The position numbers were made by a program, and so were the translations under genes. A stretch of 64,000 nucleotides of DNA from Desulfolutivibrio sulfodismutans DSM 3696 (GTDB lineage Bacteria > Desulfobacterota > Desulfovibrionia > Desulfovibrionales > Desulfovibrionaceae). Below, piece after piece: positions 17,427 to 61,590 of this stretch (positions within the stretch are counted from its first letter, which is position 1; each line of letters opens with the position of its first letter). The notes under the pieces were generated by a model. That model saw nothing but the letters and a program-made list of their open reading frames with translations, searched no databases and had not been told where the DNA came from. The stretch is taken from contig NZ_CP045504.1 of the NCBI RefSeq assembly GCF_013376455.1, forward strand, positions 2,191,001 through 2,255,000, written 5' to 3'.

Positions 17427-18503
17427 GCTTCTCATCGGACAGATTTTGGGGTACGAAACGACCAGGAGACCCCCCAATGAAGGCCGAAGAAAAACTCGCA
17501 CGGCAGAGGCTTTCCGTTTTGGAGTTGGCCAAGGAGCTTGGCAACATCGCTGAGGCCTGCCGCCAGCGAGGCATGCACCGCAGCCAGTTCTACGAGTACA
17601 AGCGGCGATTTCAGACGCACGGGATTGAAGGCCTCAAGGATCTGCCGCCTATCCCCAAGAGCCATCCCATGACGACGCCGGATGAGGTGGTTCAACGTAT
17701 CTTGGCCTTCAGCCTCGATCATCCCGCCTGGGGATGCGTCCGTCTCTCCAACACCTTGAAACTGGACGGAATTTCCGTCAGTTCGCCCACCATCCAGAAC
17801 ATCCTCATCAAAAACGGCATGGCCAGCAAATATGACCGCTGGCTCAAGCTTGAGGAGAAACGTGCCGGTGAGCCCATTGAACTCACTGGAGAGCAGGTCG
17901 CGTTCATCGAAAGGCAAAATCCCGCATTTCGGGAACGGCATGTGGAAAGTTCAAGGCCTGGCGAGCTTTTGTGCCAGGATACCTATTATGTCGGTCGTCT
18001 CAAGGGCGTTGGCCGCGTCTACATGCACACGGTTGTCGATACGTATTCGAGCTATGGGTTTGGATTTCTTCACACTGCCAAGGTTCCCGAAGCGGCAGTT
18101 GCGGTTCTGCACAACGATGTTCTTCCGTTTTATCAAGAAAAAAATCTATCTATCTCTTCTCTTCTCACAGACAATGGCCGCGAATACTGCGGAACAGAAT
18201 CACATCCCTACGAGCTTTATCTCGAGTTGAGTGATATCGAGCACCGTCGGACAAAGATCAGAAGCCCCCGAACAAATGGCTTTGTTGAACGATTTCACAG
18301 GACAGCCCTGGACGAGTTTTACCGCGAGGCGTTTCGCTCAACCCTGTATGAGTCTGTCGAATCGCTGCAGGCGGACTTGGACGACTGGCTCGACGACTAT
18401 AACAACAATCGTCCTCACCAAGGGTATCGGAACATGGGGCGCAGGCCCATCGACACCATCAACCAGTACCTTGAAAATGTCCAATAAGTAGCCTAGTATT
18501 ACA
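17416..18503 (+). mobile_element. IS481-family insertion sequence
   Basis: Ends are inverted repeats beginning TG: the left end (17416-) and right end (complement of -18503) share ACTAGGCT, CT, AT and GGACA over about 26 bp with few mismatches. The element holds one transposase gene. The flanks (AATGAGG left, AATCGCG right) do not form a clear target duplication, and each side truncates a different gene. The present arrangement therefore arose by deletion or recombination between copies, not a simple insertion. Confidence 0.85.
17477..18487 (+). CDS. IS481-family DDE transposase
   Basis: 336 residues; the start at 17477 has AGGAG upstream. The N-terminal helix-turn-helix (ELAKELGNIAEACRQRGMHRS) binds the ends. 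The rve catalytic core shows Asp in LLCQDTYYV, Asp in LLTDNGREYCG and Glu in NGFVERFHRT, the DDE triad, followed by DYNNNRPHQGY. It appears intact. The stop lies inside the right end of the element. Confidence 0.93.
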   Translation: MKAEEKLARQRLSVLELAKELGNIAEACRQRGMHRSQFYEYKRRFQTHGIEGLKDLPPIPKSHPMTTPDEVVQRILAFSLDHPAWGCVRLSNTLKLDGISVSSPTIQNILIKNGMASKYDRWLKLEEKRAGEPIELTGEQVAFIERQNPAFRERHVESSRPGELLCQDTYYVGRLKGVGRVYMHTVVDTYSSYGFGFLHTAKVPEAAVAVLHNDVLPFYQEKNLSISSLLTDNGREYCGTESHPYELYLELSDIEHRRTKIRSPRTNGFVERFHRTALDEFYREAFRSTLYESVESLQADLDDWLDDYNNNRPHQGYRNMGRRPIDTINQYLENVQ

Positions 18504-23106: not shown

Positions 23107-25023
23107 TCAACTTTTTAAATATAAACTCTTTTTGTTACCTTGCATTTCCTCTACGATAATACTCCGTTCAATCGCTTCGGTGATCCAACTTCTAAGCGTA
23201 TTTCGACTAGGTGACTTCTGCCCTTTCTCAGTCAAGATGTCGGTCATCCTCGATACTAATTCTTGATGAGTAGCTGCTTTTCCGCCTAGCGCATGTATTG
23301 CTGCCAATACGGTATTGTCTTTACTGCTTGCTTTAACTGGCTCGTTCTCAACGATTTCATATCTGAGGTTGGGGGTTCGGCGAAGATTCAGTGACCCAAG
23401 TGACTCCGAGTCTCTGCTTTTCAGATTGACGAGTTCAAACAAGTCATCTTTGCGTTTTTTCAGTTCCAAACTTCCCGAGTTCCAGTCTCCAATGGCGCTT
23501 GCACCGCGACCACCCGAGTTCCCATTGCCGCCATCCGCCTTGCCAAGATGATGTACCACCATCAATGTTACCTTGAGATCAGAAGCGAAGTCCTTGATTC
23601 CATCCAAGACTTTGCGCATGGCTTGGTTGCTATTTTCGTCGGCATCGTGAAAACTAATAAGCGGATCGAATACCAGGATATCAGGAGCTACCTTGTGTAT
23701 TATTCTGGAAAGTGACGATAGGAATTGCGGGTCACTAAAAATGCCTCTTGCCCGTGCATCACCCTTTTCTCCGGCAAATATAATGTTATTCCTCACATCT
23801 TCAGGCAATGGCTTGCCGTCGAACATCAACTGTTGCCTCCTGTAGATGCTGGCAGCACTGTTTTCAGCCTGGAAAATCAGTGACCGATACTTCCCATTGA
23901 TCTTGAACCGGCCAAGGAAACCCTCTTCCGGCGGCGAAGCCAGTTGCATGAGCATGTCCAGTGTGAAGAGAGACTTTCCAACACCCCCTTTGCCCAGAAT
24001 CATGAGCGGTTCATACTTGGGCCAGAGGCCGTCTATGATGAATTCCATCTCCGGCTTTAGAACTTCTAGATCGCCAAGCGTGACTGTTTCAATGGGCTTA
24101 GCCTCACACATATTTTCGGTGAAGACCCGTGCGACGGCTATCTGATGCACCAACCGTTTGATTCTGTTTTGTCCATATTCGCGGTGTTTCTCACCGATGG
24201 GGAACTGTTCGAAAATGGATAGAATAGTTTCATCTGATTTTTGCGCGAGAACCAAACTATCAATAACGGACATCTCTACTTCTGAGCGTGTTCCTTTCGG
24301 ATGTGAGTATAAAATCTTCACCTTCACGGAATCTGGCACATTCATGGATTGCAGGTCTATTCTGGGCAACGTGTCTGGATCGATCTGAACAGCCTTTGAA
24401 ACTGCCTCTTGGACACGTGAGGTCTCCTTCCGTTCTTCCCCGCCAAGGGACAACGCAAGAAGCCAGTCGGGAGCGGGAGCGATTGGAACAAAGTATTCAA
24501 TGCGATATGGCTGACCCGTAGCAGGATGGATTGATCCTGGCGCGACAGCCTGCCTTCCATCCCCGATAAGATCGAAGATGACACATTCATCGTCCTTGAC
24601 AGTTCTACTTTTGTATATTTTACCGTCGGAAGGGGTGCTATAGTAGAAGTGACGACTTTTGCCACCCGACTTGATTGTCAAGGTTTCAGGTAGAGAAAAG
24701 TTTTTTTCAAATAAATAGTTATTGAACTTTTCAGCGTGATCTTCGTCGATGATCAAGAGGGTATTTGACGGCCCGCCGGTGATCCCAGCGTTCATCCCCT
24801 TGAAGTCTTCAGCTTTAAATGGTCTTTTGACATGGCACCAGCGTTGCCATCCTGATTCCACGGGAGATTTGTTTCTACTTGGATTCGAATGGTTCTGGTG
24901 CAGGGGGATGAGCGAGAAGCAAGAGGCCAATCCTTCATAGAGCTGCATCCTGCTAGAGTCTTTCGAGAGATCGATTTCCGACAATGTTTTCAAGACGATT
25001 TCGTTGAATTTTTCTATAGACAT
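23107..25023 (-). CDS. Primase-polymerase / RepA-like ATPase replication protein
   Basis: 638 residues; ATG 25023 (MSIEKFNE) has an AGGTG site. The N-terminal 200 residues look like an archaeo-eukaryotic primase (bifunctional primase/polymerase): WQRWCHVKRP, the acidic LLIIDEDHAEKF, and GDGRQAVAPGSIHP. The C-terminal part is a RecA-type AAA_25 ATPase (RepA-like) with Walker A GKGGVGKSLFTL and DILVFDPLISFH. This fusion replicates plasmids and integrative elements. It sits with parB and a repeat-rich gap, forming a replication cassette for the left island. Confidence 0.85.
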   Translation of the reverse strand: MSIEKFNEIVLKTLSEIDLSKDSSRMQLYEGLASCFSLIPLHQNHSNPSRNKSPVESGWQRWCHVKRPFKAEDFKGMNAGITGGPSNTLLIIDEDHAEKFNNYLFEKNFSLPETLTIKSGGKSRHFYYSTPSDGKIYKSRTVKDDECVIFDLIGDGRQAVAPGSIHPATGQPYRIEYFVPIAPAPDWLLALSLGGEERKETSRVQEAVSKAVQIDPDTLPRIDLQSMNVPDSVKVKILYSHPKGTRSEVEMSVIDSLVLAQKSDETILSIFEQFPIGEKHREYGQNRIKRLVHQIAVARVFTENMCEAKPIETVTLGDLEVLKPEMEFIIDGLWPKYEPLMILGKGGVGKSLFTLDMLMQLASPPEEGFLGRFKINGKYRSLIFQAENSAASIYRRQQLMFDGKPLPEDVRNNIIFAGEKGDARARGIFSDPQFLSSLSRIIHKVAPDILVFDPLISFHDADENSNQAMRKVLDGIKDFASDLKVTLMVVHHLGKADGGNGNSGGRGASAIGDWNSGSLELKKRKDDLFELVNLKSRDSESLGSLNLRRTPNLRYEIVENEPVKASSKDNTVLAAIHALGGKAATHQELVSRMTDILTEKGQKSPSRNTLRSWITEAIERSIIVEEMQGNKKSLYLKS

Positions 25024-25256: not shown

Positions 25257-25535
25257 TTAGCATTTCACTTCGACCCAATCGAAGTAATAGCCATCATTTT
25301 CATATTCTTCAGCTTGCTTATCTGAGAGCGCGAGTTGTTTCTTGCGATATTCCTCATACAGGGCATCAAGATTGTTTTTTATCTCTTCATATGAGTGCGT
25401 TTTTGAAAGCGGTACATAGTACTTCTTGTAACAATCAGGGCATAAGAATTTCCACGTTTCATCAGGATTGGCGAAGAACCCGTGACCACCCCTTTGACAT
25501 TTCATTTTGATTTTTCCTTTGTTTCCTTTTGACAT
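25257..25535 (-). CDS. Small zinc-ribbon-like protein of recombinase module A
   Basis: 92 residues starting at 25535 with ACGAGG upstream. KCQRGGHGFF and LCPDCYKKYY supply at least three cysteines plus a His that could bind zinc. The rest is a charged helix. It directly follows the large integrase gene, just as the Cys-containing gene at 54010 follows the second integrase, so it is probably part of a conserved module, though the two small proteins are only loosely alike. Role unknown. Confidence 0.65.
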   Translation of the reverse strand: MSKGNKGKIKMKCQRGGHGFFANPDETWKFLCPDCYKKYYVPLSKTHSYEEIKNNLDALYEEYRKKQLALSDKQAEEYENDGYYFDWVEVKC

Positions 25536-25591
25536 GGCAGACCTCGTAACGCCCGGTTTTGGGGGCCTTCTCGGCCCCCGTTATGATGTCG

Positions 25592-26707
25592 TTATGACAA
25601 AGATGGCATCAAACTCACGGCGCGTTCCTTCTCGCCCTGCAGGTAGTGATAATACGTGTCCGCAGTCATCTTGACGGTGGAGTGACCCATCATCTTTGAT
25701 ACTGCGGCGAGGTCAGCACCTTTGCTCAAAAGCGTAGTGGCAAAGAGGTGGCGCAAATCGTACATTCTGGCTGAATATTTTATTTCGGCTCGTTCGCAGG
25801 CATTATTGAATGCCTTTCTCATTGTCGTGAGCCGTTTCCCGCGATACTCGACGACATATTCCGAGGTCGCAGCTTGCTTCATCTCCTTCAGCCGGGGGAT
25901 GAAGTTCGGATTGATGGGCACCGTTCTGAACTGCTTGTTTTTTGTCGCATAGATTTGGGCGGTGCCTTTCTCCAAATCCAGATTGGCCCATTTCAGGGAA
26001 AGCAATTCTGACGGCCCCGGCCGTGTTCCCAGGTTGAAGCAGACCTCCATGGCCCATCGAAGGTGAGGTTCCGCCTCCTTCATGATCTTCTTCACGTCCT
26101 CGAGGGTGAGTTGCACATCCCGAGGCGTTTCTTTCGACTTCTTCCTGCCCTTGAGAGGGTTGACCTTGGTCAGGCCCATTTCCAGGCCAAAGTTGAAGAT
26201 CGCGTCCACGTAATCGCAGTACCGATTGACGGTGTGCTGGGACCTCGGCTTTCCAGTGACAGAGCTTTCCGCTTGAAACTGCCGGATGAAAGGGAGCATG
26301 TCGCCGTGATAGGTCATCTGGTCCACGACCTTTTCCCCGAGCACGGGCAAGAACTGATTTTTCAAAAGCACTGAAACATTGTGGATATGCCGCTGCGTCC
26401 TTCCGGATGCCGCCAGATGTTCCAGGTGTTTTTTTGCCAAGTCCTTGAACCTCACGGCTGACTCTTCAGGGTTGTTGAGAGTGCGCTGAAAAGTCAGAAA
26501 CGGGTGATCTTGTAATCTCGTCTGTGACGTGAAGGAAACAGCATCAGGAAGTTCAGTTCCTGACGTTTTGGCCGACTTCACAGCGGTGTTGAAAGCTTCT
26601 GCCAAGCCGAATGCCTCGGGGCCTCTGCCAAAGGATTTGTCTTTTCTTTTACCCGAGTCATCGTGATAAAAGACCATCCACCTACCGTCGCGCTGGTATA
26701 CTCCCAT
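25592..26707 (-). CDS. Tyrosine recombinase/integrase, large partner (module A)
   Basis: 371 residues; ATG 26707 (MGVYQRDGRWMV) has GGAG upstream and matches the start of the relative at 54321-55496. An N-terminal arm-binding strand region is followed by a SAM-like core-binding domain and the catalytic domain: Arg in LGTRPGPSEL, YDLRHLFAT (Tyr replaces the usual first His of box II), GHSTVKMTADTYYHY with His and the nucleophile Tyr. It probably integrates and excises the left island with the small recombinase upstream. Confidence 0.92.
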   Translation of the reverse strand: MGVYQRDGRWMVFYHDDSGKRKDKSFGRGPEAFGLAEAFNTAVKSAKTSGTELPDAVSFTSQTRLQDHPFLTFQRTLNNPEESAVRFKDLAKKHLEHLAASGRTQRHIHNVSVLLKNQFLPVLGEKVVDQMTYHGDMLPFIRQFQAESSVTGKPRSQHTVNRYCDYVDAIFNFGLEMGLTKVNPLKGRKKSKETPRDVQLTLEDVKKIMKEAEPHLRWAMEVCFNLGTRPGPSELLSLKWANLDLEKGTAQIYATKNKQFRTVPINPNFIPRLKEMKQAATSEYVVEYRGKRLTTMRKAFNNACERAEIKYSARMYDLRHLFATTLLSKGADLAAVSKMMGHSTVKMTADTYYHYLQGEKERAVSLMPSLS

Positions 26708-26737
26708 AACGGAACTCCATGGGGTTGAGGTTATCCA

Positions 26738-26770
26738 AATGAAAAGGGGCCGATGAGGCCCCCTTTTTTT
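26738..26770 (-). terminator. Hairpin between the two module A recombinases
   Basis: GGGGCC (26746-26751) and GGCCCC (26757-26762) with a 5-nt loop. T runs flank it on both strands, and it lies between the small and large recombinase genes, where it could attenuate readthrough. Confidence 0.7.
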
Positions 26771-26786
26771 AACGATTTTTAGACTA

Positions 26787-27344
26787 TTATATTTCATGCA
26801 TCAGAATTTCTTCGACCTCCTCTTCCTGGATTCCAAGATAGCGCCGTGTGATAGACGGATTCGAATGGTTCAACCGTTTTGACAGGACTTCCCAGGAGAC
26901 GCCGAATTTCTTGCGCTGCTGGTAGGTCCAGGTTTTCCGCAAGGTATGCGCGCCGTAGTTGCCTTTCAGGTTCACAGCCGCACACCATCGCTTCACCATC
27001 TTGGTGACGGCGAAAGTGGTCAGAGGATAGTTTCTGCCCTTCCTGCTTTTGAACAGGAAGTCAGCGTCCCCGAGCTGTGCGGCCGTCAGATGCTTGTCCA
27101 GCGCAGTCTTGATTTCCTTGTTGACGATGAACACGTTTTCCTTGTTGGTCTTTTTCTCCTTCAAGGTAATGCGGTCGCCAACCTTGCAGTCTCGCAGGGT
27201 CTGGACCCGAAGGTTCAGTAAATCCTGGACGCGTAGCCCAGAGTTCACCCCCATCACAAACAGCAGCAGGTCTCTCGGACTTTCTCGCAAAATCTTCTTT
27301 ATGTTTCGGATGTCGCTGGAGGCGGTGATCGGTTCCACTTTCAT
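26787..27344 (-). CDS. Small tyrosine recombinase, catalytic domain only (module A)
   Basis: 185 residues; ATG at 27344 has GGAGG upstream. It contains only the catalytic domain: Arg in GVNSGLRVQDLLNL, HTLRKTW (His and second Arg) and HSNPSITRRYLG (His and Tyr nucleophile). It lacks arm- and core-binding domains, so it is about half the length of a normal integrase. The frame is intact and is repeated at 55857-56414, arguing it is functional and not a fragment. It may act with the large partner. Confidence 0.9.
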   Translation of the reverse strand: MKVEPITASSDIRNIKKILRESPRDLLLFVMGVNSGLRVQDLLNLRVQTLRDCKVGDRITLKEKKTNKENVFIVNKEIKTALDKHLTAAQLGDADFLFKSRKGRNYPLTTFAVTKMVKRWCAAVNLKGNYGAHTLRKTWTYQQRKKFGVSWEVLSKRLNHSNPSITRRYLGIQEEEVEEILMHEI

Positions 27345-27569
27345 GCATTTTCCTCCAAATTCCAGTTTTGCCTCCCAGAGATGTGAAACCGGACATTCAA
27401 AAACCCGGCGGGCATCTCCCCTTGGGGAGGCTATTTAATAACTCGTTAAATTTCTTGGATTTTAACAACCAATCCCAGTCAATGTCCGTTTCTACATAGA
27501 AACGTACTTTCCCATTTTTATTATTTTTATATAACTTTTGACAAAGTTAAAGAATTTTTGGCGCAGAAA

Positions 27570-27604
27570 CGAAAGAAAATGCCACGCTTCGAAGCATGGC
27601 ATTC
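27570..27604 (-). terminator. Terminator after AbrB-like gene (module A)
   Basis: AATGCCA (27578-27584) and TGGCATT (27597-27603) with an inner GCTTCGAAGC stem, T-rich tail on the minus strand. The same hairpin follows the relative at 56771. Confidence 0.75.
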
Positions 27605-27610
27605 TCGCGC

Positions 27611-27967
27611 TTAAGCCTTGGTGAGGATGATGCGTTCATCCTCGACGGAGACTCTGAACTCATCCCCATACTCGATGTGCATGCCCTGCAAATCGACCTT
27701 TTCCAGGTAGATCTTCAGTTCGAGCTTCTTGTTGACTCGGTAGCAATTCGAGCCCTTGAGATAGAGCCCCTTGACTTCGTAAAGGTACTTGTCATCGTTC
27801 ATCAGCTTCAAAATATGCTGCTTGAACGTCTGGCGGTGCTTGATTTCAAGCTTTGCCATGATTTCATCCGCATGCATTCCTGCATTGATGCATTCGCGCA
27901 GCATTTTGGGGTTGTATCGAGACTCGAATTTCTTTTCCGTGGTTTCATGTTCAGTTTTCTTTGTCAT
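27611..27967 (-). CDS. AbrB-like putative transcriptional regulator (module A)
   Basis: 118 residues; AAAGGAG lies before the ATG at 27967. An N-terminal helical region (RYNPKMLRECINAGMHADEIMAK) could be a helix-turn-helix. The C terminus (YGDEFRVSVEDERIILTKA) closely resembles the end of SpoVT/AbrB DNA-binding domains. It is the first gene of a module with the two recombinases, and its relative at 56771 is in the same place in module B. It probably controls recombinase expression. Confidence 0.75.
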   Translation of the reverse strand: MTKKTEHETTEKKFESRYNPKMLRECINAGMHADEIMAKLEIKHRQTFKQHILKLMNDDKYLYEVKGLYLKGSNCYRVNKKLELKIYLEKVDLQGMHIEYGDEFRVSVEDERIILTKA

Positions 27968-31473: not shown

Positions 31474-33060
31474 TCAGCCGATGCGCTTGATTGCGATGCC
31501 CTGCCAGAAACGGCTGGGGTTGCCGCCTTTCGCCTCAAAGTGCCGGGCTGTGAGCATCTTTCCGAACTGGATTTTCCCGAGAGCCTTCGAGCCACAGTCC
31601 CGAGTCCAAGCCAGGTAGTCAGAATAAAGGAGGCCTTGTTGGGTCCGGGCGTTGGGGTCGGAGATATCGGTGCGCTCCTCCAGGTACCGCGAAATGTGGT
31701 CGTTTTCCTGAAAATAGGCGGCCGTCGCATCGAGGACGACTTTGGGCGGGTTCAGCCCCTGCTTCCTCCACTCCAGGAAGCCGCGTACAGCCCAAGCGAA
31801 AATTCCGGACAGTTCGCGCTCGACCTTGCCTTCAAGCTCTTCCTTGTTGACGGTGTTGTCGAACTGGTGGCGGAAAGGTACGACCCGAATCCGGCGACGC
31901 ATCGCGTGATCCGTGCTCAAAAGTGCCGGAAGGTGGTTCACCCCCATGAATATTTTTATCCTAGGCCGGAATTGGACCGGATCCTTTGCAACCCCGCGCC
32001 CGGATAACTCATCTCCGCTCACCAGCGCCTTCATGACCCCTTCGCCTAACGTGCGGTCCTGATCAGTCTCGATTGCAAAGCCTGAGCGTTTCCCTTCGAC
32101 TTGCCGATAAAAATAGGACATGCCGTACATTGTCGATTTAAGGATCATCTCAGGATTGAGCGTCAGGCCGTACTCGCCCGAGCCCAGGATGCGGAGGTTG
32201 GTCCCGAGGAAGAGGCTTTTCCCGTTCGCTCCACAACCGTGCAGGATGGTCATGACCTCCTCATAGGTCGAGCCGGTCATGCTGTAGCCGAATTGCCGCC
32301 GTAGATAATCGGCCAAGTCCCTGTCGCCGCATGACATTTTCGTGATGCTGTCTTCCCAGAAAGGGCATTTGGCATCCGGCTCCCAGGTGACAGGTGCAAC
32401 TTTCGTCACCTGCTGCGATGGGTGGTGCGGAGCCAACTCCAGGGTTTCCAGGTCGAGCAGGCCGTTCTGCAGGTTGATTTTATAATGGTCGGCGTCGAAC
32501 TCGCGGGACGTCACCTGGATGCGCGGCGCGAGGCTGGCAAGGGCGAGGGCCTTGTTGATCATTCCCAGGGAACGAACTTTTCCCTGAAACTTCAGAAAGT
32601 CCTCCTTGTCGACCGGCTGCCCGTCCTCGGTCATATGGATGCGGCCCTCCTCGAACTCGCGGTGGACCTTGTCCAGGGCTTCCAGCGCCCAGCGCTTTGC
32701 CAGATGGCCATGGTCGCCATACTTCGTGCCGTCCCAGGCATAGAGGAGCTTTCGGTCGGTCAGGTACCGCAGGCTGTCCTGACAGGCGGCAAGAACACGC
32801 TGGCTCGCTCCGACCTCGTCAAAGTTGGACACTACCTTTACCGTGGGGGGCCGGACGACGCTCCCCCCCACCTCGGGATCGGCCGCCGGGGCCTCGGCTT
32901 CTTCAGGCGCTGGTTGTTCCCCTCCTTGCGGAACTGCGTGCTCTTCCTCGTTCGGCGGCGGGTAGCCGCCGGTTCCCTCGGCCTGATCACGGGCCGAAAG
33001 CGCGTCGTCCTTGTGCTCCTCGTCATGCGGGGTTGGTGCGGATTCTGGATTGTTGAGCAT
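31474..33060 (-). CDS. P4-family primase-helicase (SF3 helicase, D5-like)
   Basis: 528 residues; AGGAGGGTGT precedes ATG 33060. The first 90 residues are acidic and Pro/Glu-rich, probably disordered. A D5_N-like region (about 120-260) leads to the SF3 ATPase with Walker A GCGANGKSLF and IFMGVNHLP (sensor-type Asn), then RRRIRVVPF. Such proteins start replication of phage satellites and plasmids. No zinc-binding primase domain is seen, so it may be helicase only. First of three closely spaced genes. Confidence 0.9.
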   Translation of the reverse strand: MLNNPESAPTPHDEEHKDDALSARDQAEGTGGYPPPNEEEHAVPQGGEQPAPEEAEAPAADPEVGGSVVRPPTVKVVSNFDEVGASQRVLAACQDSLRYLTDRKLLYAWDGTKYGDHGHLAKRWALEALDKVHREFEEGRIHMTEDGQPVDKEDFLKFQGKVRSLGMINKALALASLAPRIQVTSREFDADHYKINLQNGLLDLETLELAPHHPSQQVTKVAPVTWEPDAKCPFWEDSITKMSCGDRDLADYLRRQFGYSMTGSTYEEVMTILHGCGANGKSLFLGTNLRILGSGEYGLTLNPEMILKSTMYGMSYFYRQVEGKRSGFAIETDQDRTLGEGVMKALVSGDELSGRGVAKDPVQFRPRIKIFMGVNHLPALLSTDHAMRRRIRVVPFRHQFDNTVNKEELEGKVERELSGIFAWAVRGFLEWRKQGLNPPKVVLDATAAYFQENDHISRYLEERTDISDPNARTQQGLLYSDYLAWTRDCGSKALGKIQFGKMLTARHFEAKGGNPSRFWQGIAIKRIG

Positions 33061-33327
33061 ACACCCTCCTTGTCGTCGGCCCGAGCGGGCCGTGATTGAG
33101 CCAGGATAGCCTAGGCCCAAAAAAAGGGTTTTTTCTGGCATGATGACCGGGGGGGTAGGCAAAGAAACCTGAAAAATGGGTCCAACTGGTCAAACGGGCG
33201 GCGGTGAATGTCGTGGGGGGCTCAGCGAGATGTCACAAATGTCACGGCATGAAAAAATCTTTTATATAAGATAGTTACGTCGAAATGCTCCGGCTTCCCC
33301 GTGACATTTCGCGACACCGTCAAGCAA

Positions 33328-37089: not shown

Positions 37090-37134
37090 TGGTGGAGCTG
37101 GAGGGAATCGAACCCACGACCTCTTGAATGCCAT
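37090..37134 (-). tRNA. 3' half of tRNA-Ala(GGC), element attachment site
   Basis: Read on the minus strand: anticodon loop ATGGCAT (T33, anticodon GGC), TCAAG, variable AGGTC, T arm GTGGG-TTCGATT-CCCTC, CAGCTCC, A, CCA. The U of CAGCTCC corresponds to U70 of the G3-U70 alanine identity pair. The bases before the loop (CTGGC) cannot pair with TCAAG, and no D arm or 5' acceptor strand follows, so only the half from the anticodon loop onward is present. This is what tRNA-targeted integration leaves at the distal junction. Confidence 0.8.
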
Positions 37135-51360: not shown

Positions 51361-53502
51361 TTACCGCTGGGCCAGTGCCAGCTTGCGCGTACCAAGTGAC
51401 TTCGCAGAACCAGCCCCTGCACCGCCCTCGTCCTTCATCTGGTCGATCAAGCTCTTGAGCACCTGCGCTTGGTGAGCAAGTTCACCCACAGCCTGGGCAG
51501 ACTGCCGCATGGCATCAGAGGTTTCGGAAGAGATGCGATTAATGGCCTCAATGCTCTGATTGATCTCCTCACTGGCTGCTGATTGCTGTTCGGATGCTGT
51601 TGCTATCGACCGCACTTGGTCGGTGGTCAGATCAACCAAAGATACGATCTCGTTCAAGGCGTCACCCGACTTACCCGCCAAGCCAGTAGCTGCGTCAATC
51701 CTTGAAACCGCGTGTTCAACATTCGCGATATTCTTTCGTGCCCCTTCTTGAATCCCTCGAATGGCGTCACCGACTTCCTTGGTGGCGGTCATGGTCTTTT
51801 CTGCGAGCTTACGGACTTCATCAGCGACGACTGCGAAACCCCTTCCGGCATCACCAGCCCGAGCTGCTTCAATGGCTGCGTTCAAGGCCAGCAAGTTAGT
51901 CTGGTCTGCAATGTCAGAGATAACGTTGAGGATTTGTCCTATGCCTTCTGCCTGTTTACCAAGAGAGGTCATGTCCATTTTGAGATCAAGAGCATATGAT
52001 TGAACTTCGCCGATCCCCTTGACCACTAAAGCAACAACTTGTGAACCATCTTCTGCTTTATCCTTGGCTTTGCCAGCAGTTTCAGCAGCCTGCGAAGCGT
52101 TCTTTGCAACTTCAAGGACCGTGGCGTTCATCTCTTCCATAGCGGTGGCGGTTTCACTCACCCGGTGAGACTGCTCCTCGGAACCACGGCTCGACTGCTC
52201 TACCTGGGCTGAAAGTTGCTCAGAAGCTGATGAAACAATTTCTACTACGCCTTCAAGTTGATGAGCTGCTTGAAGCATGCCTTCGGCCTTGGCACTTTCG
52301 GCCTTCTGTCTTGCAACATCGGCTTCTTTCATGGCCAGTAAAGCTTTTTCAGTTTGCTCAGAGGCAATAGAACTGTTTCGCTCTGCTTCTAGAATCTTGG
52401 ATTTTAAGTTTTCAACCATAGCCTCCAAAGACGCTTGAAGCACCCCAAGGTCATGGCTGAACCGTTCAACAAGTGTTGCATTTAGATTTCCACTCGCAAC
52501 ATCTTTCGAATACGAAATTATATGATTGATAGGAGCAGTAATTGAACGCGCCAGAAAGAAAGCAGAGATCAAAGCTAACAGCAAGATTAACCCTAATGAA
52601 AAGTAAACCTTTAAAAGGGTGCTGGCAATTTCGTCTTGAATTATTGACAAGTTATTAACTATCGACTCGACCTCTTTGTTGCGGACTGAGTACATGTCAT
52701 CAATAACTTTTGTCATTGTAGCAAAAAAGTCTTTGCCGCTAATGCCAAATTCTCCGTCTTTAGACTTTGTCAGTACAACATTGAATACTTTATTGACACC
52801 GGCCCATGCTTCAGACTTCCTACTATCTTCAAGGAGTGTTTTGGCAGTTGAGCTCAGTACAATCGCTTTCGAATCTAGGTTCGCATCAATATTAGCTTTA
52901 AAAGTAATCAGCCGAGTGAAAAGCTCTTCGTCGAATGGCTTGTCAGCCGTCAAAACACCGGATACGGTCGCTCTTAATTTTCCAGCATTTTCTTTTGCAG
53001 TTTCCAGAATTATGATAGTTGTCAGAGCCTTCCCAAATCCTCTTGTCGTCTTTGAATTGGCTATTGTTGTCTCAGTTGACATAAAAGCAGAAATAATCTT
53101 CCCATAAGTGTCGACAACGTCTTTAGCTGGTCCTTTTTGATTGGCAGTGCTTCGAACCTTTTCAATTTCAGATATTGCTTCTGCCGTGTTTGTTTTGATT
53201 TGAGATGAAATTGTTGATGTATTTAGCGCGCTAGTTACTGAGGGTATTTTTGAGTCAGTTGACTTTCTTTGACCTTCCATATCCTCGCGAGAACCTCCTG
53301 ACAAGTAAATGGAAGTCCGCCCTCTTTCTCTCTGTAATTCATGTATAAGATCAGATACGGCCATCAATAACTTCGTATTATTAGCCATATCACTGACAAT
53401 ATTAGATTCATCGATGTTGTTTTTAATAAATACCAAGCTTACGATAAAGAACGCGATCAGCGGAATTGCCGTCAATATAACTAATTTTCGCGAAATTTTC
53501 AC
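51361..53502 (-). CDS. NIT-domain methyl-accepting chemotaxis protein
   Basis: 713 residues from GTG 53502 (AAGGGGCA upstream). Transmembrane helices near 8-26 and 300-322 bracket an extracytoplasmic NIT domain ([19 protein letters not shown] near residue 53). HAMP follows, then a long coiled coil with the signalling tip [18 protein letters not shown], and flanking methylation helices. The NIT domain suggests nitrate/nitrite or a related small-molecule input. First gene of the MCP-cheW-SBP operon. Confidence 0.93.
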
Positions 53503-54009: not shown

Positions 54010-54255
54010 CTAAGCAAGCAATTCGTCGACTAAACTGAATCGCTCACGTCTCTCCCTTTCGGAACGGTGACCATGAACACCAATGAACTCTTTCCACAAC
54101 CTGAGGCCATAGCTACGCGACTCATCTCCAGCGACATAGCTCTCAAATTCCACGTTGCACTTAGGACAAAGAATAACTTCGCTGTCGTCCTCAAAATGTC
54201 CCGTGAACCCTTTCGAGCAATCCATACATTGCACACTCTCCCCATATCCCCTCAT
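54010..54255 (-). CDS. Small zinc-ribbon protein of recombinase module B
   Basis: 81 residues; GAGGAGAAC precedes ATG 54255 (MRGYGES). Two CxxC knuckles (QCMDCSKGF and LCPKCNVEF), 18 residues apart, form a rubredoxin- or zinc-ribbon-like site. The rest is charged and helical. Located directly downstream of the large integrase, in the same relative place as the Cys-containing gene at 25257. Possibly a DNA-binding or recombination accessory protein. Confidence 0.75.
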   Translation of the reverse strand: MRGYGESVQCMDCSKGFTGHFEDDSEVILCPKCNVEFESYVAGDESRSYGLRLWKEFIGVHGHRSERERRERFSLVDELLA

Positions 54256-54320
54256 GGCAGTTCTCCTCATCAAAAATTGGAGCAGGACTCTCTTCACAAG
54301 ACTCCTGCCCCCGGTTCATG

Positions 54321-55496
54321 TTAAACGGCAATCAAGCTGGGCAACTTGCTAACAGCCCGTTCTTTCTCACCTTCCAGATAGTGATAGTACACGTCTGCGG
54401 TCATCTTTACCGTGGAATGGCCCATGAGTTTAGATACCGCCGCCAAGTCGGCTCCGTTCGCCAGCATCGTCGTTGCGAAGAGATGGCGCAGGTCATACAT
54501 CCTGAAATCCACGGTGATACCAGCCTTCACGCAGGCCTTGTTGAAGCTCTTGCGAATCGTTGTCACCGGCTTCCCGTCGTATTCGACGATGTACCCAGAC
54601 CTTGAATGCCCCCGCATCTCCTTCAGGCGATCCAGGAATGCCGAAGTCACCGGGACAGTCCGATAGGTCTGCGTTTTGGTAGCGAAAATTCGCACCGTGC
54701 CAGCGCTGAAATCCACATTTTCATAGCGCAATGCGAACAGTTCCGAAGGACCAGGCCGAGTCCCGAGGTTAAAGCAGACCTCCATGGCCCACCGGACATG
54801 AGGCTCAGCACACTCCATGATCCGGCGCAGGTCATCAACGCCGACCTGGACGTCCCGAGGTTTCTCCTTGGCTTTCTTCCGCCCCTTCATTGGGTTCCTG
54901 GAAATGAGTTCCATCTCGATGCCGAAGTTGAAGATCGCGTCGAGGTAGTCGCAGTAGCGATTGACACAGGACTGGGACCGTGGCTTCTTCGTCTGAGGAC
55001 TGACCCCTTGCATCTCCTTGATGAACGGGACGATGTCTTTCAGGTACGTCATGCCCTCGACCAGGGTGTCCCGACCAAGGATGTCGAAGAACATGCTCTT
55101 GAGCAGGTTCTCGAGGTTAGCAATGTGCTTCGGCGTCCGACCCGACACCCGAAGGTGATCCAGGTACATCATCGACAGTTGACCAAAGGTGACCCTCTTG
55201 GCAGGTACGGCGACAGAAGCCACCGTCGCTACCGACGTCGCCAGCGGCATTTCAGCCTGGACCTCTTCAGCCCCAACCCCTGGCTCTTCCTGGTGCGCAA
55301 CCGGTTCCGCCCCCGGCTCAGTGACCTGCACCTCCTGAACAGGCACATTCAGATTCGCTTTCGCTTGCTGGATCGCAAGATCAAACGCCTCAGCCTGGAG
55401 ACGGGCCACTTCGCCCCTACCGAAGGACTTGTCCCGCCTCTTACCTTCTTCGTGCCAATAGACCATGAACCGTCCATCGCGTTGATAGACGCCCAT
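54321..55496 (-). CDS. Tyrosine recombinase/integrase, large partner (module B)
   Basis: 391 residues; CGGAGGGTGC precedes ATG 55496. It starts MGVYQRDGRFMVYWHEEGKR like its relative at 25592, then has a longer Val/Pro/Glu-rich linker (about 55-100) absent from module A. The catalytic domain shows LGTRPGPSEL (Arg), YDLRHLFATTM (Tyr for the usual His, then Arg) and GHSTVKMTADVYYHY (His, Tyr). It is the best candidate integrase for the tRNA-Ala-linked island. Confidence 0.92.
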   Translation of the reverse strand: MGVYQRDGRFMVYWHEEGKRRDKSFGRGEVARLQAEAFDLAIQQAKANLNVPVQEVQVTEPGAEPVAHQEEPGVGAEEVQAEMPLATSVATVASVAVPAKRVTFGQLSMMYLDHLRVSGRTPKHIANLENLLKSMFFDILGRDTLVEGMTYLKDIVPFIKEMQGVSPQTKKPRSQSCVNRYCDYLDAIFNFGIEMELISRNPMKGRKKAKEKPRDVQVGVDDLRRIMECAEPHVRWAMEVCFNLGTRPGPSELFALRYENVDFSAGTVRIFATKTQTYRTVPVTSAFLDRLKEMRGHSRSGYIVEYDGKPVTTIRKSFNKACVKAGITVDFRMYDLRHLFATTMLANGADLAAVSKLMGHSTVKMTADVYYHYLEGEKERAVSKLPSLIAV

Positions 55497-55586
55497 TTGA
55501 GCACCCTCCGTTGGTGGTGATTGCAGATGATTTATGAAGAGAATGGGGCGACCAGATCGATCGCCCCGGAATCGAATAACTAAACC

Positions 55587-55802
55587 TTACACATCCAGAC
55601 AGAACTCGATCGTCAGGCTATTGCCCCCAAGAAGCAGTTTAGAATAATGGCCATCTTCAACATGTTCGAACGGATAATTATTTTCTTCATCCATCTTAAC
55701 CAGAAGCTGAAGATTCGGAATCATGCACAACAAACGCAACATGTTCTCAATATTAGAGGCGTGCTGCAAAGTTTCCAGCGACGTGTAGCGGTTAGTACTC
55801 AT
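55587..55802 (-). CDS. Small protein inside recombinase module B
   Basis: 71 residues; CTGGAGAATCGCC precedes ATG 55802 (MSTNRYTS). Helical start and a beta-type end (GNSLTIEFCLDV). It sits between the small and large recombinase genes and has no counterpart in module A, where only a hairpin terminator occupies the gap. A GGGGCGA...TCGCCCC hairpin follows its stop. Family not recognised. Confidence 0.6.
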   Translation of the reverse strand: MSTNRYTSLETLQHASNIENMLRLLCMIPNLQLLVKMDEENNYPFEHVEDGHYSKLLLGGNSLTIEFCLDV

Positions 55803-55856
55803 GGCGATTCTCCAGATAATGAAAAGGGCCATTTCTGACCCTGCTAAAGTGTTTGA

Positions 55857-56414
55857 TCACAATGCGTTGAGGAGGATTTCTTCCACCTCTTCATCCTGTA
55901 CCCCAAGATACCTTCGCGTTATCGAGGGGCTACTGTGATTGAGCCTCTTGGCCAACAACTCCCATGAAACACCAAATGTTTTGCGTTGATGGTAGCACCA
56001 CGTCTTCCGCAGTGTATGCGCTCCGAAGTTGCCTTGTAGATTGATCTCGTCGCACCAGCGCTGCACCATCATGGTGACGGCATACGTGGTCAGCGGATAA
56101 TTCTTCCCCTTGCGGCTCTTGAACAGGAAATGTTCATCTTCGAGTTTCGAAGTTGCAAGATGCTCGGCAAGAGCCGACTTGATTTCCTTGTTCATTATGA
56201 AGATGTTCTCTTTGCCAGTTTTCTTTTCCTTGAGGCAGACGCGGTCGCCAATCTTGCAATACTTCACGTCTGAAACCTTCAAGGCCAATATATCTTGGAC
56301 CCTGAGCCCAGAGTTCACCCCCATGGTAAACAGTAGCCGATTACGCGGCTGATCCGCCAAGAGCTTCTTGATGCTCTTGATGTTCTTGAGGTCGATAATG
56401 GGCTCGACTTTCAT
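55857..56414 (-). CDS. Small tyrosine recombinase, catalytic domain only (module B)
   Basis: 185 residues from ATG 56414, preceded by AAAGGAGG. Same length and start (MKVEPI) as the protein at 26787. Arg in GVNSGLRVQDIL, HTLRKTW, and HSSPSITRRYLG complete the recombinase active site. No N-terminal DNA-binding domains. The coding frame is cleanly preserved in both copies, so a catalytic-domain-only recombinase seems to be a real working part of the module. Confidence 0.9.
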   Translation of the reverse strand: MKVEPIIDLKNIKSIKKLLADQPRNRLLFTMGVNSGLRVQDILALKVSDVKYCKIGDRVCLKEKKTGKENIFIMNKEIKSALAEHLATSKLEDEHFLFKSRKGKNYPLTTYAVTMMVQRWCDEINLQGNFGAHTLRKTWCYHQRKTFGVSWELLAKRLNHSSPSITRRYLGVQDEEVEEILLNAL

Positions 56415-56719
56415 GAGCACCTCCTTTGCAACGTTGTTTTTCGCTTCCAAACCCAACCAAATCGTAGATTCAAAACCAGGGATGGCTGGGACCGTCCAGC
56501 TAGTGCTGGAGTATCCCGTTGTAATACAACGGCTTATGCTGCAATGCTCATCCAATGTACGATTCTATCTATTATCGTTCTTTCCTCCGTTGTAGAGTGT
56601 TCGCATTATACCAATGATATCTGTATTACTTTGTGCATTCTGCCAGAAAATTGAAGTGACAATTTGATAGACTGCGAATCAGATGTTATGTTGCACGGAG
56701 GACGGAAAGCAGGATTCAA

Positions 56720-56756
56720 ACAGAAGAAAATGCCACCTCTCTGGAGCATGGCATTC
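56720..56756 (-). terminator. Terminator after AbrB-like gene (module B)
   Basis: AATGCCA (56729-56735) and TGGCATT (56749-56755), T-rich tail on the minus strand; same outer stem as 27570-27604. Confidence 0.75.
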
Positions 56757-56770
56757 GTAGATGGTTGATT

Positions 56771-57154
56771 TCAGATCACCGTCAGGATGATGCGATTGTC
56801 TTCGACAGTGACGGCGAACTCGTCGCCTTCATTGACGTCGAGGCTGCCCAGATCAAGTTTGTTGACGTTGATCCGCACCTCGCCCTTCTTGTTGACGTAG
56901 GGACGTGCAGAACTCTTGAGATAGAGTCCTTTGACGTCGTAGAACTGCCTGTCCTGGCTGATGAGCTTGAGGACGAAGTGCTTGAGGGTCGGCTTATGCG
57001 TAATGTTCATCTTTTCCATGATGGACTTCGCGTCGAGACCTTCCCTGATGCACTCCCTGAGAAGCGAAGCATTGTACTTCGACTCAGGGCGCTTCTTTTC
57101 GCCCACGCCATCGAACTCTTCACCCTCAATGGACTGAACCTTCTTCGCTGACAT
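56771..57154 (-). CDS. AbrB-like putative transcriptional regulator (module B)
   Basis: 127 residues; AAAGGAGGCAAT precedes ATG 57154. Relative of 27611-27967: shared KYNASLLRECIREGLDAKSIMEK helix region, FYDVKGLYLKSS and the AbrB-like end EGDEFAVTVEDNRIIL. First gene of module B, followed by the conserved terminator and the two recombinases. It probably sets the on/off state of the recombinases. Confidence 0.75.
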   Translation of the reverse strand: MSAKKVQSIEGEEFDGVGEKKRPESKYNASLLRECIREGLDAKSIMEKMNITHKPTLKHFVLKLISQDRQFYDVKGLYLKSSARPYVNKKGEVRINVNKLDLGSLDVNEGDEFAVTVEDNRIILTVI

Positions 57155-59656: not shown

Positions 59657-61531
59657 CTATTTAGGGCTGGTCCTTCCCCGTCCGTCCCAAAAGGATTTGG
59701 CACTGAAGCAGTACATTGGCACTATTACGTTCTTCGACTCGCCAGCAGTTTTAGGGATGACGACCTTTCGCTGATACCCTTTGGACCAGTCATCGGTGAT
59801 GAGCCAGCCCTTGTCCTTCCAGAGACGGACCATTTCTAAGGCTTTAAATCCATTCTTTCTAAGAATATCATCCAGAATCGTTTTCGTTAACCCTGTGAAT
59901 GTCCATTCTCCATCGTCAGTCACGTCGCAATACGCTCCATGCATGTCACCAGACCAAGGGATATTTTGACGCGCCTCGGCTGGCAAATACACTCGATTCT
60001 GATTACTGCTAATCCATTCCTCTACGCACCCAAATGCCTGAGAAGCAATATCTGCAGATTTTGCTTCGTTCATTGCCCTGGACCAGACTGAATCGAGTAG
60101 GCTTCGGACTGGCGTGCTCCGTTTCAGTTCCGGTAGAGCCGCATGGATGATTGCAATCGCAGTAGCGACAGCGGCAAAGTATTCTCCAAGTCGCATTTCA
60201 ACTGGCGTCAGATCAGGCGATTTCGTAAGAAGCTCATTCGCTTCGGCATACGCCTCCTTCCAGATGGGCCATTGATCCCGATGGTCCAGGATGAACTGAA
60301 CCATGCGAGGTCCAGCATGGCCGAAGTGGTCAGTGACCCCTGTCTTGGTCCTGGTGACAACAGCTTTGCTCTCAGCGTCTGTCCTGAGGAAAGGGTTGCC
60401 CCAAAGGTCGATGATCCTGCCCCTGACACCACCGTCTGTACTCAGGTCCAGGCTTGGCGTCTCTCCAGTTGAGAAGAGGATGGTCCTGAACGGCTGCACC
60501 CGATCAGAGCCATGGAGGGTCGCTCGGCCCTTATCCATGCCGGATGCGATCATGTAGATGGAGTCAGTGACGAGGTCGCTGCCGTACTTGTTCTTTTTGT
60601 TCTGCAATCTAGCCAGCTTAGTTTCGTCAAGGAACAACGGCAGCCCATTGAGCAGAGCCGCCATCCTACCGATCCTGTTGTCGGTCCCGTTCCAGGTGTT
60701 GATGAACGAGCCCGCATGGAACGAAGGATTTCCCCATGCCGATGCCGCCAGCATCAGCGCGGTGGTTTTCCCTGAAGAACTTGGAGCACAGAGTTCGAGT
60801 GTAAAGTTGTCCACCCCCAGGATCGGAAGCAATGGCGCGGCCAAGGACGTGTACAGCGCAAAGGCGACGTCAGGATATTCCAGCGCCTCATTGACCATGG
60901 AGGCCCAGGCGGCGAAGCTTCCCTTTTGAACAAAGCCGCTTGCGAATTGCTCATCTCCCTGGTCGGCACCCTTGAAACGAACCACCGGGGCCTGGCCGGG
61001 AAGTTTACCGGCGGAAGTCCCACTCAAGTACGAGTGCCCCCAGAGAAACCCCGCCATGTCCTCGGTCCAACCCAGGCGGCTGTCCACAAACGTCTTCGGG
61101 ATGTTGCCACTGTTAACCCGATCATATTCTTGAAGATACTCGATGATGCCATTTGCGTTAATGCTCGTGACGGGGAAGTTGTAATTTGCCAATCCGACAA
61201 TGCTGGTCTTGCTTGCGATGACTCCGCGTTCAATTTGATGCTGATGCCACCTCCCGTCGCGTAACCAGGACAATGTGACATAATGCAGCCCCGTAGACCT
61301 GTTCTCCGAACATTCGCTAATCACGATTGGGCATGGTGAAAGCCGTATCCCGCCTGCATCAGTCGATTTAACAAGGCTCAGGTCCTTCGCAAACAGATAC
61401 CGATGCGGCAATTCAGACGCATTTGATACTGGCGCATTGGGAATACGCTGTTGAATGTTAATCGTCTTAAGAACTATATCTTGAGCAACTGCGCTCATAC
61501 TGCTTGTGTTGACAGTTTGATTCGTATTCAT
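59657..61531 (-). CDS. DUF927 ATPase/helicase-like protein
   Basis: 624 residues; AAAGGAAATCC precedes ATG 61531. The DUF927 region shows SRLGWTEDMAGFLWGH, then Walker A PSSSGKTTALML and LPLFLDETKLAR, followed by ILFSTGETPSL. DUF927 proteins are superfamily-3-like ATPases found in plasmids, phages and islands, and are thought to act in replication. A lid/C-terminal region with winged-helix character (WTFTGLTKTILDDILRKNG) ends the protein. The radical SAM gene upstream is 59 bp away and is probably co-transcribed. Confidence 0.88.
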   Translation of the reverse strand: MNTNQTVNTSSMSAVAQDIVLKTINIQQRIPNAPVSNASELPHRYLFAKDLSLVKSTDAGGIRLSPCPIVISECSENRSTGLHYVTLSWLRDGRWHQHQIERGVIASKTSIVGLANYNFPVTSINANGIIEYLQEYDRVNSGNIPKTFVDSRLGWTEDMAGFLWGHSYLSGTSAGKLPGQAPVVRFKGADQGDEQFASGFVQKGSFAAWASMVNEALEYPDVAFALYTSLAAPLLPILGVDNFTLELCAPSSSGKTTALMLAASAWGNPSFHAGSFINTWNGTDNRIGRMAALLNGLPLFLDETKLARLQNKKNKYGSDLVTDSIYMIASGMDKGRATLHGSDRVQPFRTILFSTGETPSLDLSTDGGVRGRIIDLWGNPFLRTDAESKAVVTRTKTGVTDHFGHAGPRMVQFILDHRDQWPIWKEAYAEANELLTKSPDLTPVEMRLGEYFAAVATAIAIIHAALPELKRSTPVRSLLDSVWSRAMNEAKSADIASQAFGCVEEWISSNQNRVYLPAEARQNIPWSGDMHGAYCDVTDDGEWTFTGLTKTILDDILRKNGFKALEMVRLWKDKGWLITDDWSKGYQRKVVIPKTAGESKNVIVPMYCFSAKSFWDGRGRTSPK

Positions 61532-61590
61532 TTCGGATTTCCTTTGAAGAAGGGCCACCAAGTTTTCACTTGATGGCCCTCTTTTAACGC

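Follow-up and report, generated by a model that had tools for sequence, protein, structure and literature searches.

Two paired-recombinase modules and their small enzyme

The stretch analysed here (the window) comprises 64,000 nucleotides of Desulfolutivibrio sulfodismutans DSM 3696 (contig NZ_CP045504.1, positions 2,191,001 to 2,255,000) and carries two modules, A and B, in each of which the gene for a small tyrosine recombinase is followed by that for a large one. The order of regulator, small recombinase, large recombinase and Cys-containing small open reading frame (ORF) had been described at 25257-27967, with a recurrence at 54010-57154, in a sequence-only reading; both are confirmed, and a third small-large pair lies in the same genome at G000:C1:1072525. 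In modules A and B a two-part site, S1 and S2, lies upstream of the small gene. The features are as follows.

Module A
27611-27967, minus strand: regulator, 118 residues, N-terminal part helix-turn-helix-like, C-terminal AbrB/MazE-like hairpin
27575-27606, minus strand: terminator-like hairpin after the regulator
27481-27510, minus strand: site S1, AAAGTACGTTT-CTATGTAG-AAACGGACATT, start at -166 from the small start codon; proposed crossover site
27358-27397, minus strand: site S2, S1-type arms 18 bp apart, start at -53, 18/22 arm positions; proposed accessory site
26787-27344, minus strand: small catalytic-domain-only tyrosine recombinase, 185 residues; proposed resolvase
26746-26762, called on the plus strand: terminator-like hairpin in the small-large gap
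25592-26707, minus strand: large tyrosine recombinase, IntDes-like, 371 residues; proposed tRNA-site integrase
25257-25535, minus strand: Cys-containing small ORF
Module B
56771-57154, minus strand: regulator
56554-56583, minus strand: site S1, AAAGAACGATA-ATAGATAG-AATCGTACATT, 8/11 paired, start at -169
56436-56470, minus strand: site S2, left arm clear (10/11), right arm degenerate, start at -56
55857-56414, minus strand: small recombinase, 185 residues
54321-55496, minus strand: large tyrosine recombinase, IntDes-like, 391 residues
54010-54297, minus strand: Zn-ribbon-like Cys protein (weak match)
37090-37134, minus strand: 45-nt copy (43/45) of the 3' half of tRNA-Ala(GGC); proposed attR of the module B island

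Both recombinases of each module match the Pfam Phage_integrase model and are complete tyrosine recombinases. In the small enzyme the catalytic Pfam model alone spans residues 14-174 of 185; it has the catalytic fold only and lacks the core-binding domain that simple tyrosine recombinases carry in addition. The AlphaFold2 model of the module B protein (predicted local distance difference test, pLDDT, 92.3) matches the catalytic parts of XerA, XerH and Cre. The catalytic residues R38, K65, R136, H160 and Y169 are present in all 106 aligned loci (see below) and H133 in 102 of them, with R in the remaining 4; the enzyme therefore has the R-K-H-R-H pentad and nucleophilic Tyr of the tyrosine recombinase superfamily. 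Pfam coverage, model and catalytic residues together bear out the earlier description of a recombinase reduced to its catalytic domain and kept intact in two diverged copies. No publication on this small-recombinase family was found in searches of open-licence papers.

The modules are homologous gene by gene with the exception of the last small ORF. Identities between A and B are 68% for the small recombinase, 55% for the large recombinase and 51% for the regulator; the Cys proteins have just a weak 41-residue match in common, and a minority of loci have an ORF related to that of module A 3' of the large gene. The label 'AbrB-like' is weakly supported for the regulator: the top Foldseek matches of the module B protein model (pLDDT 78) are AbrB/MazE/SpoVT domains, but all are weak (E >= 0.2), as are the best sequence matches (E 0.075-0.09). 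The terminator and the hairpin that had been reported in module A are both present, but the number of hairpins found by a terminator scan (6, with 4.2 expected, standard deviation 2.0) is not above chance.

The distribution of the module was surveyed across the family to which the window belongs, in 288 genomes. Of these, 51 have the small recombinase (E <= 1e-30), with up to 11 copies per genome among the matches listed; the large recombinase, whose search was confined to this family, was found in 33 (E <= 1e-60); and the regulator also in 33 (E <= 1e-10). Stretches around the matches were fetched and their genes typed with profiles built for this analysis. The counts below refer to 106 distinct full-length small-recombinase loci, leaving out partial or broken matches in genomes G261, G218, G066 and G037, a contig-edge copy in G269 and the duplicate locus L093:451 (the same as L094).

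A two-part site upstream of the small recombinase gene

Alignment of the DNA between the regulator and the small gene revealed one conserved dyad, S1, with 11-bp arms around an 8-bp spacer, whose start lies mostly at -163 to -169 from the small start codon. Arms paired at 9 or more of 11 positions occur within -182 to -120 in 73 of the 106 loci and in 67 of 2120 dinucleotide-preserving shuffles (3%); at 8 or more of 11, the figures are 85/106 loci and 22% of mononucleotide shuffles, and 81 of these 85 sites have a spacer of exactly 8 bp. S1 is held by 18 of 24 clusters defined at 70% identity. In distant clades, including loci beside phage terminases, the arm sequence differs while geometry and position are kept. 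Of the 35 loci that lack a regulator within 5 kb, 23 still have the site, as do 14 of the 25 with neither a regulator (5 kb) nor a second recombinase (1.2 kb). Across the 4.44-Mb genome the S1 pattern is found at the three small genes, in one match with three mismatches, and nowhere else. Such a distribution is expected if the dimers of each element are resolved at a single site of that element.

S2 starts near -50, and its S1-like arms are 18-20 bp apart, about one helical turn wider than in S1. It agrees with the arms of its own S1 at a mean of 16.7/22 positions, compared with 13.2/22 for the arms of relatives below 55% identity, and scores higher with its own S1 arms in 69 of 73 loci; S1 and S2 arms covary and change by recombinase clade. 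The distance between the two centres, taken from representatives at 70% identity, is 95.5-96 bp (3 loci), 113.5-114.5 bp (5) or 117-118.5 bp (10), with 4 of 22 outside these classes. A core dyad with an accessory site beside the gene, as in res-type sites, is found in most, but not all, clades.

The centre of S1 evolves unlike its surroundings. In 24 disjoint sister pairs (small-protein identity 85-100%), differences fall on 54/144 positions (37.5%) in the central 6 bp, compared with 152/1200 (12.7%) in the 50 flanking bp and 17/528 (3.2%) in the arms. Divergence of the centre exceeds that of the flanks in 17 pairs, falls below it in 5 and equals it in 2, both of which are identical duplicates. 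Copies that reside in one genome have different S1 spacers in 7/7, 6/6, 5/5 and 6/9 cases in four genomes. Since an operator does not need a centre that evolves faster than its flanks, S1 is a candidate crossover site, for which the fast centre argues, although not finally; together with the arm covariation and the change by clade, it gives S1 and S2 the layout of a resolution site.

The small recombinase is also found on plasmids, on phages and in other genomes of the phylum. In tblastn searches it matched 483 of 72,556 plasmid records (E <= 1e-20; Enterococcus 320, Bacillus 74) and, with P0002 as the query, 139 of 50,697 phage records (E <= 1e-12; Streptococcus 122), while the L152 protein gave no matches among phage records at E <= 1e-20. 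A sample of the phylum gave matches in 23 of 395 genomes, the window's own included; of 30 phylum loci, only 10 had an upstream region that automatic start finding could define, one of them masked, and 80 of 127 viral contigs were kept. Carriage on circular replicons is evident from the plasmid records and from the 9,561-bp plasmid pDCAR5 of Solidesulfovibrio carbinolicus, which encodes RepB, ParA and the small recombinase without a large one, and has S1 at -163 (10/11) and S2 at -56 (19/22, 19 bp). These pDCAR5 positions count from the annotated start; the same gene entered the family counts as locus L148 with a later start. Both parts are likewise present on a Leptolyngbya plasmid (S1 at -168, 11/11; S2 at -56, 17/22) and an Enterococcus faecalis plasmid (S1 at -164, 11/11, spacer 7; S2 at -57, 17/22, 19 bp). 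On an Acaryochloris plasmid S1 lies at -153 (11/11, spacer 7) and S2 is weak, and a Natranaerobius plasmid has S1 at -162 (10/11, spacer 7). In Streptococcus phages PH10 and Javan374 the small gene lies a few genes upstream of the large terminase gene; by analogy with Cre of P1, the small recombinase could also circularise phage genomes.

Linkage to the large recombinase and tRNA-bounded islands

An IntDes-type large gene lies within 1.2 kb downstream of the small gene, on the same strand, in 69 of the 106 loci (68 found by script, and L045, whose large gene sits in the adjoining stretch L044); 11 loci have an unrelated recombinase of another type in that place and 26 have none. The regulator is within 700 bp upstream in 60 loci and within 5 kb in 71. 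Viewed from the large gene, 48 of 64 matches have the small gene upstream, and so do 37 of the first 38 (both hand counts; at most six candidates per genome were scored). This search for the gene order across genomes upholds the view of the two recombinases as a conserved neighbourhood; a small gene usually absent beside the large one, a finding that the sequence-only reading had named, along with dispensability of the small enzyme, as speaking against its own interpretation, is not what was seen. At 69/106 and 48/64, the pair is conserved but not obligatory.

The same reading had gone further and proposed a two-subunit recombinase, in which the small and large proteins would integrate and excise the island as a single mixed complex. 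Conserved adjacency and the catalytic completeness of both enzymes fit this proposal; however, the rest of the evidence does not support it, and we regard it as highly improbable. The small gene occurs without the large one on a plasmid and in prophages, where it lies directly upstream of a large terminase gene (L142, L152 and similar loci), it occurs beside unrelated recombinases and in the same island at a distance from the large gene (L096, L137, L138), and it has its own two-part site. Homology breaks at the small-large junction: the large gene is swapped at the small stop codon while the regulator and small gene are up to 96% identical. In one genome (loci L056, L057 and L058) the regulator and small gene are about 95-96% identical to those of L056, the large gene of which shares 90% identity with its counterpart at L082, a locus of another genome; between L103 and L110 the regulator and small gene are 92% identical and the large genes belong to different families. 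Moreover, type-2 modules already carry a separate excisionase-like gene of their own. The separate existence, the homology break and this excisionase-like gene argue that the small enzyme is not a subunit of the large one.

The terminases downstream of the small gene belong to at least two families (phrog_38 and phrog_675). The homology breakpoints at the small stop codon had also raised the idea of an attachment site inside the 3' end of the small gene; it was set aside, a repeat being found in just 14 of 110 placements (7 stretches), mostly as whole second copies.

The large recombinase resembles IntDes, a subgroup of AB-domain tyrosine recombinases of the Desulfovibrionaceae in which the first His of the pentad is replaced by Tyr (PMC8138268). 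In our alignment this position is Y334 in 81 of 84 sequences, and R247 is invariant (84/84). PMC8138268, the sole relevant paper found under the name IntDes among open-licence papers, describes the subgroup as restricted to Desulfovibrio relatives, with the first arginine shifted relative to other recombinases; its IntDes section calls the function unknown and gives no partner. Here, copies of tRNA halves and a linked small recombinase accompany the large enzyme.

A partial tRNA-gene copy of at least 43 nt is present in 29 of 100 scanned stretches, nearly always running from about position 32 to the 3' end. At the third module, a full tRNA-Arg(ACG) gene (L052:10642-10718) and a 48-nt partial copy (18323-18370) bound an interval of low G+C content (0.34-0.45 in 2-kb values), the last gene of which is the large recombinase, with its stop codon 34 bp before the tRNA-Arg copy. 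Locus L100 has a similar arrangement with tRNA-Pro, and in genome G135 a tRNA-Ala gene and two partial copies delimit two tandem intervals with one module each. In another set of loci (for example L110 and L117) the 3' end of the large gene is 181-360 bp from the tRNA, and in several of these an excisionase-like helix-turn-helix ORF precedes the large gene. In the window, the copy at 37090-37134 and a tRNA-Ala(GGC) gene at 69067-69142 in window coordinates, 5 kb right of the window, place module B inside a 32-kb island. No attR was found for module A: only two tRNA-Ala half copies score at least 29/45 in the 104-kb stretch, and no further copy lies left of module A. Since its islands have a tRNA gene at one boundary and a duplicate of the gene's 3' half at the other, the IntDes-like large recombinase is probably their tRNA-site integrase.

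Several observations concern the islands themselves. The partial tRNA-Ala copy at 37090-37134 has two substitutions relative to the resident gene, which together preserve a T-stem pair (C-G to G-C), and all of its 45 nt match a tRNA-Ala of another genome of the family (L091), hinting that the module B island came from a host with that variant. Replication-type proteins near both modules (23107-25023, 31474-33162 and 59657-61561; Prim-Pol/AAA_25, D5_N and DUF927 with a Cch helix-turn-helix domain) suggest that the islands can replicate once excised. Genome G037 has an array (L062-L063, about 4-34 kb) of whole and broken copies of the small-recombinase 3' end in both orientations, adjoining tRNA-Ala and tRNA-Thr-like fragments; the genes between the copies resemble those for a DNA methyltransferase, a reverse transcriptase and, possibly, a restriction enzyme. 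In G212 (L060/L061) an 8-kb block with one module is present at two chromosomal places with 99.35% identity; it was set aside as a clean element, because a primase-like ORF of 602 residues is cut at its left edge and the sequence of one right flank is masked. A methyl-accepting chemotaxis protein gene, perhaps island cargo, follows the module in the window (51361-53502) and, with a similar start, in Solidesulfovibrio aerotolerans (L004:9239-11446).

Candidate functions and comparison with known systems

Taken together, we consider it probable that the integrative islands carry two site-specific recombination systems, adjacent but independent: the small enzyme would be a minimal tyrosine resolvase that works by itself at a resolution site of its own, and the large one an integrase acting at tRNA halves. 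From the sequence patterns we infer that the small protein binds S1 and S2, cuts there and serves resolution. The large IntDes-like recombinase would use the 3' half of tRNA genes as its site for island insertion and excision. S1, at about -165, would be the crossover site, and S2, at about -50, an accessory and autoregulatory site. With the small protein at both parts of two sites in direct repeat, a complex would form in which strands are exchanged at S1 between copies on the same molecule and not between molecules, in the manner of res and IRS. The excised or replicating element would in this way be reduced from dimers or tandem copies to monomers, and S2, lying over the promoter region, would let the small protein also control its own expression.

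Several points weigh against this explanation. Counted pair by pair, the contrast between S1 centre and flanks is modest (17 v 5, sign p = 0.017); S1 is identical in three distant copies in G262; in a large subclade the site is a 29-bp variant of lower symmetry; and the S2 of module B is degenerate. An S1 of at least 9/11 is lacking in 33 of the 106 loci and even one of 8/11 in 21. Beyond the family, no convincing S1/S2 pair was found in PH10, Javan374, pBS32, a plasmid of pLS20 size, Planococcus or B. badius, which make up 6 of the 8 plasmid and phage examples in the scan, nor in Caldicellulosiruptor; and a dyad of at least 9/11 with 8-bp spacing lies within 300 bp in just 16 of 66 distinct viral loci (control 4.9%), where ten S1 positions (-195 to -211) count from the residue aligned to the query start and not from the annotated start.

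Alternatively, S1 and S2 may be operators through which the regulator, or the small protein itself, represses by looping the promoter region, with the small recombinase acting elsewhere. The fixed distance from the start codon, the overlap of two spaced dyads with the promoter region, the discrete classes of centre distance (about 96, 114 and 118 bp) and a weak promoter-like match overlapping S1 (the number of such matches is not above chance) would suit operators, and a repressor dimer could also use spaced dyads. We nevertheless find this unlikely: the site persists without the regulator (23/35), its arms change with the recombinase clade, and the S1 centre shows the rapid evolution for which repression has no need. 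Autoregulation and resolution are in any case compatible. More doubtful still is an inversion switch in which the small enzyme flips a promoter between S1 and S2 or elsewhere, a reading to which we give very little credence. FimB and FimE, which work in this way, are also short recombinases, the small recombinase has weak NCBIfam invertase matches, and inverted copies of the small gene region exist in G037; but S1 and S2 differ in spacing and share no centre, and the genome holds no second S1-like site elsewhere, the single three-mismatch match aside.

Resolution by the small enzyme at S1 and S2 has parallels among transposons. TnpI-IRS of Tn4430/Tn5401 and TnpS-TnpT/rst of Tn4651 are tyrosine resolvases of Tn3-family transposons that, in the relevant passages of PMC7157771, likewise combine a tyrosine recombinase with a resolution site that adjoins the recombinase gene or lies upstream of it, consists of a core inverted repeat and accessory sites, and controls expression. 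According to the same passages, the accessory sites of TnpI are direct repeats, whereas S2 is an inverted pair with wider spacing; unlike TnpI and TnpS-TnpT, the protein here has 185 residues and no core-binding domain. Tn3-family TnpI shares its element with the DDE transposase TnpA and terminal inverted repeats; no Tn3 transposase was noticed beside the inspected modules, although no search aimed at transposases was made. The res site of Tn3/gamma-delta, served by TnpR, similarly has crossover and accessory sites next to the gene, and the portion of PMC9943657 describing it gives site II a spacer 9 bp longer than that of site III, about one helical turn, which recalls the wider accessory half-sites of S2; TnpR, however, is a serine enzyme of unrelated fold, and res has three sites where two are found here. 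XerS/difSL and XerH/difH share the use of one recombinase with a site beside its gene, and XerH is a fold match of the small enzyme; they differ in being chromosomal, with proteins of about 356 residues, and the lines on them in PMC5357621 mention no accessory site. RIT (recombinase in trio), GInt and BIM elements are also tyrosine recombinase clusters (as outlined in parts of PMC3414803 and PMC5385486), but in RIT and GInt three recombinases belong together, whereas the two described here are separable and one has its own site.

A broader proposal, which we put forward tentatively and judge somewhat short of even, is that the small enzymes of Desulfobacterota islands, prophages and plasmids and of cyanobacterial and enterococcal plasmids form a cross-phylum family of minimal catalytic-domain-only tyrosine resolvases with a two-dyad res-like site, whose hypervariable centre of a few bases would act as a replicon address tag, so that a replicon would resolve no other than itself, even in a cell that contains about a dozen sister copies. 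If the proposed roles are correct, a class of recombinases annotated just as 'integrase' on hundreds of plasmids and phages would gain a function, and a catalytic domain without the usual DNA-clamping domain would be able to run topologically controlled resolution. The family would further provide a ready set of orthogonal recombinase-site pairs, and the IntDes enzymes of 'function unknown' would be assigned to tRNA-gene islands.

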